A DNA stretch of 64,000 nucleotides from Acidobacteriota bacterium. GTDB lineage: Bacteria; Acidobacteriota; Terriglobia; UBA7540. Where the stretch lies: NCBI GenBank assembly GCA_021838785.1, contig JAKCCV010000007.1, forward strand, positions 62,001 through 126,000, given 5' to 3'. The notes under the pieces were generated by a model. That model was not told the origin of the DNA. It saw only the letters and a list, made by a program, of their open reading frames with translations, and did not search any database. Positions within the stretch are counted from its first letter, which is position 1, and the number at the start of each line of letters is the position of its first letter. A program made the position numbers and the translations under genes. Of the stretch, positions 35,171-38,962 are shown piece after piece.

Positions 35171-35288
35171 GAAAAGCGCCGTGGGGCTTTAGGCCGTGCA
35201 CGGCGCATCAGGACGCTTTGGAAAGACGTTGCCTGCGCAGGTGGAACCTGCTTACTAAGATAAGCAGGAACCGCTGCTGAGATACACG
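35171..35288 (-). ncRNA. tracrRNA of the type II-C CRISPR locus
   Basis: The anti-repeat occupies 35254-35287. Its 5' part (35267-35287 on the minus strand, GTGTATCTCAGCAGCGGTTCC split at 20 bases) is an exact complement of the distal half of the CRISPR repeat. The next 13 bases (35254-35266) pair imperfectly with the proximal half, with G-U wobbles and a one-base bulge. After it come a hairpin (CAGGT-GGA-ACCTG in plus-strand reading, 35238-35250), a GCAACG-containing segment like the nexus of other II-C tracrRNAs, and the terminator. The predicted transcript is about 117 nt. It is divergent from cas9 and appears intact although the proteins are not. Confidence 0.82.
35172..35206 (-). terminator. 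intrinsic terminator of the tracrRNA
   Basis: Read on the minus strand, GCGCCGTG (35206-35199) pairs with CACGGCGC (35183-35176), an 8-bp perfect GC-rich stem, followed directly by TTTTC (35175-35171). This is a classical Rho-independent terminator placed about 80 nt after the anti-repeat, as expected for a type II tracrRNA. Confidence 0.75.
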
Positions 35289-35293
35289 GGTGT

Positions 35294-35321
35294 ATAATAC
35301 CGCCAATTTATTTCCTGTCAA
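35294..35321 (-). promoter_or_regulatory. sigma-70-type promoter of the tracrRNA
   Basis: On the minus strand a perfect TTGACA (-35; 35321-35316) lies 16 bp from TATTAT (-10; 35299-35294). The expected start point is about 35287, that is, the first base of the anti-repeat. The -35 box overlaps the cas9 ribosome-binding site (AGAGGTG, 35321-35327). A TATAAT reading on the plus strand (35293-35298) overlaps the same -10 and may serve cas9. Confidence 0.75.
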
Positions 35322-35331
35322 GAGGTGATTC

Positions 35332-37335
35332 ATGTCGGAACCACTGGAATACATTCTCGGCATTGACCTCGGCAGCAACTCTCTTGGATGGGCCATTATT
35401 GGGCTCATTGACGGAGAGCCCGCGCAGCTTATCCGTGCCGGGACGCGGGTCTTTGAAGCGGGCATGGAAGGTGACCTCGAGTCCGGCCGCGAGGAGTCAA
35501 GAAACCTCAAGCGGCGCGAGGCTCGACTTCAGCGGCGTCAGACGTGGCGGCGGGGGCGGCGGCTGAAAAAGATTTTCAACCTCCTGGTAGGGTTTCGATT
35601 GCTGCCGGCGAGCGATGCGGCCGATGCAAATTTGAGATTGGAAATTGGAAAGGGAGGCGCCGAAAGTGGCTCCTTGCGGGCGAGCGATGCGGCCGATGCA
35701 AATTTGAGATTGGAAATCGGAAAGGGAGGCGCCGAAAGTGGCTCCTTGCGGGCGAGCGGTGCGGCCGATGCAAATTTGAGATTGGAAATTGGAAAGGGAG
35801 GCGCCGAAAGTGGCTCCTTGCGGACGAGCGAAGCGGCCGATGCAAATTTGGGATTGGAAATTGGAAAGGGAGGCGCCGAAAGTGGCTCCTTGCGGACGAG
35901 CGATGCGGCCGATGCAAATTTGAGATTGGAAATTGGAAAGGGAGGCGCCGAAAGTGGCTCCTTGCGGACGAGCGATGCGGCCGATGCAAATTTGAGATTG
36001 TAAATTGGAAAGGGAGGCGCCGAAAGTGGCTCCTTGCGGACGAGCGATGCGGCCGATGCAAATTTGAGATTGGAAATTGGAAAGGGAAGCGCCGAAAGTG
36101 GCTCCTTGCGGGCGAGCGAAGCGGCCGATGCAAATTTGGGATTGGAAATTGGAAAGGGAAGCGCCGAAAGTGGCTCCTTGCGGGCGAGCGATGCGGCCGA
36201 TGCAAATTTGGGATTGGAAATTGGAAAGGGAAGCGCCGGAAGTGGCTCCTTGCGGGCGAGCGATGCGGCCGATGCAAATTTGGGATTGGAAATTGGAAAG
36301 GGAAGCGCCGGAAGTGGCTCCTTGCGGACGAGCGGTGCGGCCGATGCAAATTTGAGATTGGAAATTGGAAAGGGAGGCGCCGAAAGTGGCTCCTTGCGGG
36401 CGAGCGATGCGGCCGATGCAAATTTGAGATTGGAAATTGGAAAGGGAGGCGCCGAAAGTGGCTCCTTGCGGGCGAGCGGTGCGGCCGATGCAAATTTGAG
36501 ATTGGAAAGTTCAGAAGGGCGGCAGGACTTTCTGAACGCTCTCGATCAGCGGATACTGGCTTCCGAGTGGTTTAAGGCCAAGGCCTCAAGCAGCCAATTT
36601 CCCGAGCCGGAGCAAACGTTGCCCTACATCCTGCGCGCCGCCGCGCTCGACGAGCCACTCGAGCCTCACTTTCTTGGCCGGGCGCTTTATCACCTGGCGC
36701 AGCGCCGAGGATTCCTGAGCAATCGCAAGCAGGTGTCGAAAAAGAAGGACGATGACGGGGGCGCGGTCAAGCAAGGCATCGCCGAACTGTGCGAAGCGAT
36801 GCAGGAGCAATCTGGACACCCGCAAGAGCAAGAAAGCGGAGGCCCCAACCGTCCGCGAACTGCTGGGCCTTCCCAAAGGGACCACGTTCAATCTTCAGCG
36901 CGGGGGCGAAGAAAAGATGCCGGGCAATCGCACCACGTCGAAATCTACGCCGAGCTGGATAAAAACGGCAAAGAGGGCAGATGGGACGGCGAGGTGGTCT
37001 CCATGCTTGAAGCCTATCAGCGCATCAAGGCCGGGAAGCCCGTCGTCCAGCGCGACTACGGGCCGCTGGTGAGATTCAAATTCTCCCTTGCGCCCGGCGA
37101 GGTAATCGAGTGCGACGACGGGAGGGGGGGACGGGCTCTCTGGGTTTCGAGGGGCGTCGCTTCCTATGAGAACGGGCCAAGGCTCTTGCTCGTTCCGCTA
37201 AACGATGCCCGCAAAAAGAAGGACATACTGAAAGCGGGCCTGTTCTGGTCGCCGCTCTTGAACCCACTTAGAAAACTGAATCCCCGCAAGGTTGTGGTCA
37301 GCCCACTGGGGGAAGTTTCTGAGGCGAAGGAGTGA
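35332..37335 (+). pseudogene. cas9: degenerate type II-C cas9, expanded by an in-frame minisatellite and lacking HNH
   Basis: The N-terminus has RuvC-I (YILGIDLGSNSLGWAIIG, with Asp12) and an Arg-rich bridge helix (about residues 60-85), typical of Cas9. At residue 95 a 72-bp tandem array begins (35614-36507); its sixth copy has a GAA-to-TAA change creating an in-frame stop at 36001. After it the REC lobe resumes ([36 protein letters not shown]) to about 36815. It then shifts to the +1 frame ([27 protein letters not shown]), and near 36935 joins the C-terminal domain in the original frame ([42 protein letters not shown]). RuvC-II, HNH and RuvC-III are gone. A normal II-C Cas9 has 1000-1100 residues. 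No cleavage activity is expected. Confidence 0.88.
35614..36507 (+). repeat. 72-bp minisatellite, 12.4 copies, inside cas9
   Basis: Twelve complete 72-bp units and a 30-bp partial one, each encoding 24 residues (core [15 protein letters not shown], then AESGSLRAS). Units differ at only a few sites: first codon GAT/GGT/GAA, AGA/GGA, GGC/AGC, GAA/GGA, GCG/ACG. Variants are shared by neighbouring copies (copies 7-10 carry AGC; 9-10 also GGA), as expected from block duplication. The array keeps the cas9 frame across all copies except for one TAA. The unit contains ATTTGAGATTGGAA, close to the 14-bp satellite at 37341-37438. Confidence 0.95.
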
Positions 37336-37340
37336 AGGGA

Positions 37341-37438
37341 ATTTGAGATTAGAGATTTGAGATGACGGATTTGAGATTAGAGATTTGAGATTAGAGATTT
37401 GAGATTACAGATTTGACATTACAGATTTGAGATTTCAA
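37341..37438 (+). repeat. 14-bp satellite, seven tandem units, before the four-helix-bundle gene
   Basis: Seven head-to-tail units of ATTTGAGATTAGAG or close variants (ATTTGAGATGACGG, ATTTGAGATTACAG, ATTTGACATTACAG, ATTTGAGATTTCAA), starting 6 bp after the cas9-remnant stop and ending 17 bp before the next start codon. Two more 14-mers of the same kind lie inside that gene at 37740-37767. Confidence 0.92.
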
Positions 37439-37455: not shown

Positions 37456-37947
37456 ATGAAGTATGAGCGGTTTGAGCAACTGCCGGTGTGGCAGGCGGCG
37501 ATTGAACTGGCAAGGCGGGTTTACGCGCTGACGGGGCAACGCGAATTCCGCGGTCAGCGGAGCCTGCGCGACCAGATCGAGCGGGCCGCGGTCTCCGTCT
37601 CCAACAACATCGCGGAAGGCTTTGAGCGCGGGACCACGCAGGAGTTGCTCACCTTTCTCTATATCGCGCGCGGCTCGGCGGGCGAAGTCCGCTCCATGCT
37701 GTGCCTGCTGGAGGCGCTGCCGGGATTCGAGAGTCTCCAATCTGAGATTTCAGATTTGAAATTGAAAGCGGAAAGCGTTTCCAGGCAGTTGCGCGGCTGG
37801 GCCGACTCGCTCCAGAACTCCAAAATCACCGGCCAGCGCTATCTGAACGAGAAAAGCCGCCGCGCGGACGAGCAGCGGAAAGGTCGGGAGGAATTTCTGA
37901 AAACGCTCGAACGGATTCGGCAGGGCAGCGTGAAACCGACCGGCTGA
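37456..37947 (+). CDS. four-helix-bundle protein (23S rRNA intervening-sequence / S23 type)
   Basis: A 163-residue all-helical protein of the family called four helix bundle protein or 23S-IVP. The family hallmarks LPVWQAAIELARRVYALTG, SLRDQIERAAVSVSNNIAEGFERG and FLYIARGSAGEVRSML are present. An AAGGAAG site (37442-37448) precedes the ATG. Residues about 95-105 (SEISDLKLKAES) are encoded by two copies of the 14-bp satellite found upstream. It sits between the cas9 and cas1 remnants. The fold is shared with the Avd protein of diversity-generating retroelements, but no reverse transcriptase is present. Its function is not established; it may be a cargo of an inserted element. Confidence 0.82.
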   Translation: MKYERFEQLPVWQAAIELARRVYALTGQREFRGQRSLRDQIERAAVSVSNNIAEGFERGTTQELLTFLYIARGSAGEVRSMLCLLEALPGFESLQSEISDLKLKAESVSRQLRGWADSLQNSKITGQRYLNEKSRRADEQRKGREEFLKTLERIRQGSVKPTG

Positions 37948-37962
37948 TCCCTTGACGTTTGA

Positions 37963-38511
37963 GACCTCAAATGCGGCATCCCAAACGACGGCGGCCTGGA
38001 GAGGCTGGGGGCAACCATTCGCTCCGGCGACCCGCAGAACGTTGAGGCGCGCGCGGCGCGTGTCTGCTGGAAAAACCTTTTCGGCGACGAGGACTTCCGG
38101 CGCAACCCCGAAGGCGAGGGATTAAATCCGGCGCTCAATTACGGCTACGCGGTGCTGCGCGCCATCGTGGCGCGGGCGCTTTGTGCTTCGGGGCTGCACC
38201 CCTCGCTCGGCATCCATCATCACAACCGCTATGACGCGTTCTGTCTCGCCGACGACCTGATGGAACCGTTCCGGCCGGTGGTGGATCGCGCCGTGCTGGG
38301 GCTGAAAAAGGAGCGCGGCCCTGACCCGCCGCTCGACCGCGATGCCAAGCGCGTGCTGCTGGAAGCTTTGCTGGGACGCTTCGAGGCGGGCGGCGAATCG
38401 AGAACGCTTTTTGATTGGGCGAGCCGGGCGACGGCGTCGCTTGCCGCCGCCATCCAAGGCTCTGAAAAAAGGCTGGAGATTCCAGCCCTGGAGCCAACGC
38501 CCGACGCCTAA
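37963..38511 (+). pseudogene. cas1: cas1, 3' remnant (type II-C)
   Basis: An open frame after a TGA at 37960. From about 37990 it reads clearly as the C-terminal half of type II Cas1: GGLERLGATIRSGDPQNVEA, ARVCWKNLFGDEDFRRN, EGLNPALNYGYAVLRAIVAR and GLHPSLGIHHHNRYDAFCLADDLMEPFRP. It carries the late metal-binding histidine and acidic residues of the integrase site. The N-terminal half (roughly 130 residues, including the first catalytic glutamate) and any start codon are missing; the four-helix-bundle gene occupies that place. Integration activity is not expected. Confidence 0.85.
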
Positions 38512-38532: not shown

Positions 38533-38766
38533 ATGCCACGCCATCAATTCGCATTGTCGGGGTACAAGGCCATGTGGCTGTTTGCCATGTTCGACCTGCC
38601 GGTGGATAAGCCGGAATTGCACCGCAAGGTCCACGCCCTGCTGCCCAGCCACGGCCAAGTGAGGCTGGTGTCCGTGACCGACCGCCAGTTTGAAAAAATG
38701 GAGACCTATGTCGGAAAAAAACGCAGGCCGGTCGAAGACCCACCGATGCAACTCATGCTTTTTTGA
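38533..38766 (+). pseudogene. cas2: cas2 with an internal in-frame deletion
   Basis: A 77-residue ORF. MWLFAMFDLPVDKPE is the normal start of a type II Cas2 (ferredoxin-fold strand 1 with the conserved aspartate), and LLPSHGQVRLVSVTDRQFEKM with GKKRRPVEDPPMQLMLF is the normal end. The 35-40 residues between them, which form helix 1 and strands 2-3 in intact Cas2 (normally 100-110 residues), are absent without loss of frame. A 13-residue extension precedes the usual start methionine. It begins 21 bp after the cas1 remnant. It probably cannot form the Cas2 dimer. Confidence 0.82.
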
Positions 38767-38817: not shown

Positions 38818-38962
38818 AGTGTATCTCAGCAGCGGTTCCCGGCAAACCATAGCGAAGCCAGCTCCTTGGCAACCTAAGCCTACAGTGTATCTCAGCAGCG
38901 GTTCCCGGCAAACCATAGCTATTACCATGCTTAGGGCCTAGTACGGGTCAGTGTATCTCAGC
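38818..38962 (-). CRISPR. short type II-C CRISPR array: two 36-bp repeats, two 30-bp spacers, one 13-bp partial repeat
   Basis: Repeats at 38818-38853 and 38884-38919 are identical (plus strand AGTGTATCTCAGCAG...GGCAAACCATAGC). Spacers are 38854-38883 and 38920-38949. A third repeat is cut to its first 13 bases (38950-38962) and the sequence then diverges. The 36/30 spacing is standard for type II-C. Pairing to the tracrRNA implies transcription on the minus strand, so that the repeat ends in GAGATACACT. In that sense the partial repeat is at the upstream end, which suggests the leader side was deleted. The direction is inferred from the anti-repeat only. Confidence 0.88.

Follow-up and report, generated by a model that had tools for sequence, protein, structure and literature searches.

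How does a tandem repeat come to lie inside a cas9 gene, and did it grow there while the nuclease was still under selection? This question is raised by the window, the whole 64,000-nucleotide stretch of acidobacterial DNA analysed here (C27:62001-126000 of genome G000, a 3.4-Mb draft in 38 contigs that is 98% complete). Positions 35332-37335 hold a type II-C cas9 remnant in which RuvC-I and the bridge helix are followed by a repeat array, REC1, a frame-shifted REC piece and the C-terminus. An open reading frame starts on the plus strand at the ATG at 35332, encodes RuvC-I (GIDLGSNS), the bridge helix and a run of 24-residue units, and meets a TAA at 36001-36003, after which the same frame is open to 37335. 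Both flanks of the array match the NCBIfam Cas9 profile TIGR01865. The 5′ part (35332-35602) covers profile positions 1-65 (E 7e-18), and the REC1 part (36509-36807), in frame with the start, covers positions 66-158 (E 6e-16) and is 90% identical to the Cas9 of a congener, G002, with which the window gene groups in a tree. Searched alone, the flanks gave no match in Pfam. By sequence the gene is clearly a type II-C member, an assignment that does not extend to activity of the window copy.

Downstream of REC1 the gene is damaged. Alignment to G002 places two frame-shifting deletions at about 36808-36818 and 36931-36942. Between them lies a short REC piece in a shifted frame (36818-36935), which is closer to the Cas9 of another relative, G014, than to that of G002, a sign of mosaic descent. 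The second deletion removed about 1.7 kb, including HNH and RuvC-II/III, and restored the original frame for the C-terminal part (36931-37335, plus strand, stop at 37333-37335, 84-88% identical to G002); its breakpoints have only about 6 nt in common (CACCAC). The window copy thus does not combine HNH and a complete RuvC in one gene, and a functional truncated Cas9 is ruled out, since the gene is frameshifted and lacks HNH and two RuvC motifs. The first-pass annotation had described this locus as a type II-C cas9 with an in-frame 72-bp minisatellite after the bridge helix, one TAA-bearing unit, two frame shifts and no HNH or RuvC-II/III, and had proposed that later deletions and the stop killed the gene. 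Open reading frames, repeat finding and alignment to G002 bear out each of the described features, and the protein search of the flanks that it proposed confirmed the Cas9 family.

The array itself spans 35603-36508 on the plus strand. Tandem Repeats Finder reports a period of 72, 12.6 copies (12.4 in the first-pass annotation), 96% matches and zero indels, and the TAA falls in the sixth unit. Each unit adds 24 residues in the Cas9 frame and carries heptamers of the ATTNNAR type. The insertion point lies between two neighbouring columns of the TIGR01865 profile (65 and 66). The 72-bp unit is found nowhere else in the G000 genome and recurs in the congener G002, which excludes chance. The unit is free of stops in two of its three forward frames and also on the minus strand, so openness by itself says little about whether the Cas9 frame mattered. 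The open reading frames in the second forward frame and on the minus strand are taken here for by-products of a stop-free repetitive unit. A phage origin was sought in IMG/VR, where the unit has no match.

The congener G002 (MAG YP1.bin18, contig C165) is the relative that the first-pass annotation had hoped to find, with the same unit at the same cas9 site in an open gene. There, 3.8 units at the contig end lead in frame into a Cas9 that has an uninterrupted frame of at least 1,044 codons, counted to the contig end, and carries HNH (DIEHIIPFSRS), RuvC-II (VELARD) and RuvC-III (HHAVDA). The contig ends within the array, a break typical of short reads, so that the copy number and the junction with the RuvC-I part lie off the contig. 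The operon runs cas9-IVP-cas1-cas2-CRISPR array, where IVP stands for a 23S rRNA intervening-sequence protein. Its Cas1 matches TIGR03639 (type II), its Cas2 is intact and matches TIGR01573, and its CRISPR array holds 13 repeats with 12 distinct spacers. The window and G002 Cas9s are sisters with 100/100 support. In an AlphaFold2 model of the G002 protein, residues 15-87, in the array, have a pLDDT of 28-47 (below 50), while most of the body reaches 70-90; the model has a pTM of 0.41 from 18 sequences, and this thin alignment may partly explain the low confidence of the array. The best PDB matches of the model in Foldseek are type II-C Cas9s, led by Nme1Cas9 (E 3e-46).

Cas9 relatives were found in 28 of 200 related genomes searched. 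At the array site G001 has a short loop, as do no fewer than 18 further related Cas9s, in keeping with the first-pass statement that intact type II-C proteins have a short loop here. Among 39 family genomes the unit is present only in G000 and G002, besides a 32-bp heptamer match in G034, and among 399 class genomes only short heptamer matches occur beyond these two. Length variation of another kind is seen in the Cas9s of G014 and G019 (L052, L053), which bear lineage-specific in-frame inserts in a C-terminal loop after LHEET.YSRP. Separately, a protein adjoining the G002 cas locus (L049 4423-4711; L078 about 1934-2227) has its own 33/99-bp coding repeats, which are shared with G000.

Selection has left different traces on the flanks and on the array. 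Between the window and G002, dN/dS (Nei-Gojobori) is 0.09 in REC1 and 0.12 in the C-terminus. Between G002 and G001 or G014 it is 0.17 and 0.13, values obtained with dS near saturation. The window units comprise 8 distinct variants, of which 7 are nonsynonymous by direct count, a proportion not different from neutral. The flanks are thus constrained and the array is not. Since the repeat-bearing gene of G002 is open and the flanks have low dN/dS, the repeat would have coexisted with a selected Cas9, and the window copy would have died later through its stop and deletions, probably recently. The first-pass argument that the repeat grew while the frame still mattered is therefore upheld by the open Cas9 of G002 and by flank dN/dS of this order; its appeal to a unit length divisible by three carries little weight alone.

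Descent of the locus is more tangled than that of the genomes. G000 and G002 are 94-96% identical around obgE/rplU, and their cas loci occupy different genomic places. Identity within the cas locus is a mosaic of roughly 60-100%: 95-98% just right of the array, 75-93% elsewhere in cas9, 90-100% in the IVP gene and 58-85% over most of the stretch that holds cas1. In most of the operon the two species are less alike than they are in the array and the 150 bp or so to its right. Exchange of cas alleles within the genus, by recombination or transfer, is likely; recombination between alleles may have spread the array, and recombination or horizontal transfer may account for part of its sharing.

The resulting history, given a probability of roughly 0.7, is that an insert of the heptamer type found with IVP genes grew, with the frame kept, into a minisatellite in a loop that tolerated it; the host was a selected type II-C Cas9, of which the window copy is a later-dead allele. 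An unlikely alternative is that the array grew as neutral junk only after cas9 had died, with the G002 allele also dying or having received its array from a dead allele by recombination. The neutral-looking variants, the stop in one unit and a unit open in two forward frames would all suit such late growth, as would a recombination tract, suggested by the fact that the array and its right flank are the part of cas9 most alike between the species. The state of G002 speaks against it, namely an open frame with catalytic motifs, low dN/dS, complete cas1 and cas2 and 12 distinct spacers, and so do the twelve window units, free of indels and still in frame.

Selection on the repeat itself is less probable still. 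Here the 24-residue unit would be maintained by selection within Cas9, perhaps as a tunable linker or a binding site, and its copy number would adjust activity. Its position at the hinge of bridge helix and REC lobe and the frame kept in two alleles are what such a part would be expected to show; however, purifying selection on the unit sequence was not detected, the array folds with low confidence, at least 19 related Cas9s lack the unit, and beyond G000 and G002 it was not detected in about 400 class genomes, where other matches are short heptamers. An assembly artefact or copy-number error, for which the draft state of G000 could be cited, is hardly credible given an independently assembled MAG with the same unit at the same site, its contig broken in the array in the usual short-read manner, and given that the G000 units differ among themselves in a structured way inside a 149-kb contig.

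Where could a heptamer-rich insert have come from? A candidate source lies directly downstream of cas9, where a heptamer array of ATTTGAG/ATTACAG/ATTAGAG (37341-37438, plus strand) precedes an intact open reading frame for the IVP (37456-37947, plus strand), also called S23, a four-helix bundle (PF05635, E 2e-26; TIGR02436). The gene has the open reading frame of an intervening-sequence element and is located between cas9 and cas1 rather than inside 23S rRNA. Its dN/dS between the window and G002 is 0.165. An IVP gene occurs at this place in three genomes of two genera (window 37456-37947; L049 8380-8871; L055 1294-1827), with dN/dS of 0.165-0.22, and may belong stably to this CRISPR operon. 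G016, of another genus, likewise has its IVP gene between cas9 and cas1, with similar heptamers ahead of it.

Heptamers accompany IVP genes across the class. Of the class IVP loci (L081-L110), 23 of 27 have period-7 repeats no more than 300 bp away, as against 1 of 27 control positions. On the two sides of these genes the heptamers form inverted copies (score 27 versus 11-13 at controls), and the heptamer differs between loci. Around the IVP genes of the window and G002 the arms score 14; the mean is 27 for 25 other IVP loci and 11 for controls, values that give no clear support to an inverted-arm structure around the window gene.

The 72-bp unit contains the same kind of sequence, ATTTGAG-ATTGGAA-ATTGGAA. 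Three tandem ATTNNAR heptamers occur 14 times in the window and never in 100 shuffles of it; the whole G000 genome has 17 such triplets and none of the reversed control. Fourteen of the 17 belong to the array or to the surroundings of the IVP gene, whose open reading frame contains one of them, and the other three comprise one in a stretch reading as 23S rRNA and two overlapping in another open reading frame. A hairpin of same-family heptamers is found in the 23S-like stretch (L125 1500-1520; G000:C29:120895), and in G008 a similar heptamer run starts at the same 23S-like place before the contig ends. The same family also appears within a long open reading frame resembling a repeat-rich surface protein (L126 1500; G000:C31:47375). 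Alignment with its relatives shows 7 additional residues (21 nt) in the G002 Cas9 loop, next to the last unit. Judged from these sequences, an IVP-linked heptamer insert would have seeded the minisatellite, a derivation that covers all but about 30 nt of the unit.

The preferred history would then begin with a short heptamer-type insert, like those accompanying the IVP gene of the operon, entering the loop between bridge helix and REC1 with the frame kept. Slippage or unequal recombination could then have multiplied a 72-bp segment combining this insert with native loop codons into a tandem array. As long as Cas9 remained under selection, only changes in multiples of 3 bp would survive, which the open frame of G002 and the constrained flanks support. 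The added 24-residue units are predicted to act as an unstructured, sequence-tolerant linker in a Cas9 that, in G002, retains its catalytic motifs. More tentatively, and less likely than not, a natural Cas9 lineage might work with a disordered repeat linker of variable length joining bridge helix and REC lobe. This linker would have been seeded by the IVP-linked heptamer element of the lineage's own operon, and copy-number change in it could alter nuclease activity within a population.

In G000, the stop in one unit is joined by at least four deletions across cas9, cas1 and cas2, damage read directly from the sequence, through which interference and adaptation would both have been lost. Only the C-terminal fragment of cas1 persists (37966-38511, plus strand; PF01867, E 3e-11), and it is the sole Cas1 in the genome. 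The N-terminal part was deleted between heptamer-like repeats, the missing interval being that between two copies of TGAAATCTCAAATnTGAGAT in G002, and these two copies are a plausible substrate of the deletion. A heptamer insertion in cas1 was also considered and dropped; an insert in G014 is similar in length and position and different in sequence. The cas2 gene (38533-38766, plus strand) has an internal deletion of about 100 bp relative to the intact G002 Cas2. A CRISPR remnant (38818-38962, plus strand) retains two complete 36-nt repeats and part of a third, with 30-nt spacers. Upstream of cas9, on the minus strand, a candidate tracrRNA (35172-35287) shows a nexus hairpin, a terminator hairpin and an anti-repeat at 35267-35287 whose 21 nt are identical to the CRISPR repeat (local alignment score 21). 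Its fold has a z of -5.4, with none of 200 shuffles equally stable, and its anti-repeat end (35251-35298) is kept in G001. The end state would be a relic in which a tracrRNA-like locus and two complete CRISPR repeats persist.

Compared with known type II-C systems (TIGR01865; Nme1Cas9, GeoCas9, SaCas9), the locus shares the domain order and, in G002, the catalytic motifs, as well as the order cas9-cas1-cas2-CRISPR and a tracrRNA-like locus adjoining cas9. It departs from them in carrying a tandem-repeat insert where the bridge helix meets REC1 and an IVP gene that separates cas9 from cas1; the window copy has also lost HNH and RuvC-II/III. A search of open-access literature yielded no report of a natural repeat insert in Cas9, nor of a large variable insert between bridge helix and REC, as the first-pass annotation had supposed. 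Tandem heptameric repeats precede the S23 open reading frame of the Coxiella intervening sequence as well, in numbers that vary between strains (PMC4990558). Here, however, the gene sits in a CRISPR operon instead of 23S rRNA, and heptamers are found inside cas9 too. In cyanobacteria, heptanucleotide repeats are called STRR. The Beggiatoaceae have a tandem heptanucleotide, TAACTGA, scattered in the genome, in a report that makes no mention of 23S or intervening sequences (PMC4679880). Both resemble the present heptamers as tandem 7-mers scattered in a genome and differ from them in sequence family.

In-frame coding repeats are also known from Borg genes. The tandem repeats there have units divisible by three and encode amino-acid repeats with mostly intrinsic disorder; they are enriched among extracellular and membrane proteins and reported to be under strong selection (PMC9879509). 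The window array likewise has a unit length divisible by three within an open reading frame, whereas the gene that carries it encodes a nuclease of adaptive immunity and the unit looks neutral. The heptamer repeats that accompany IVP genes, here within a CRISPR operon, are a possible source of bacterial in-frame coding minisatellites. In SpCas9, the bridge helix is reported to be among the least deletable parts (PMC8476515). Despite this sensitivity, the otherwise intact-looking Cas9 of G002 bears an added linker right behind the bridge helix, and natural alleles with and without the array provide a natural test of how much the hinge tolerates.
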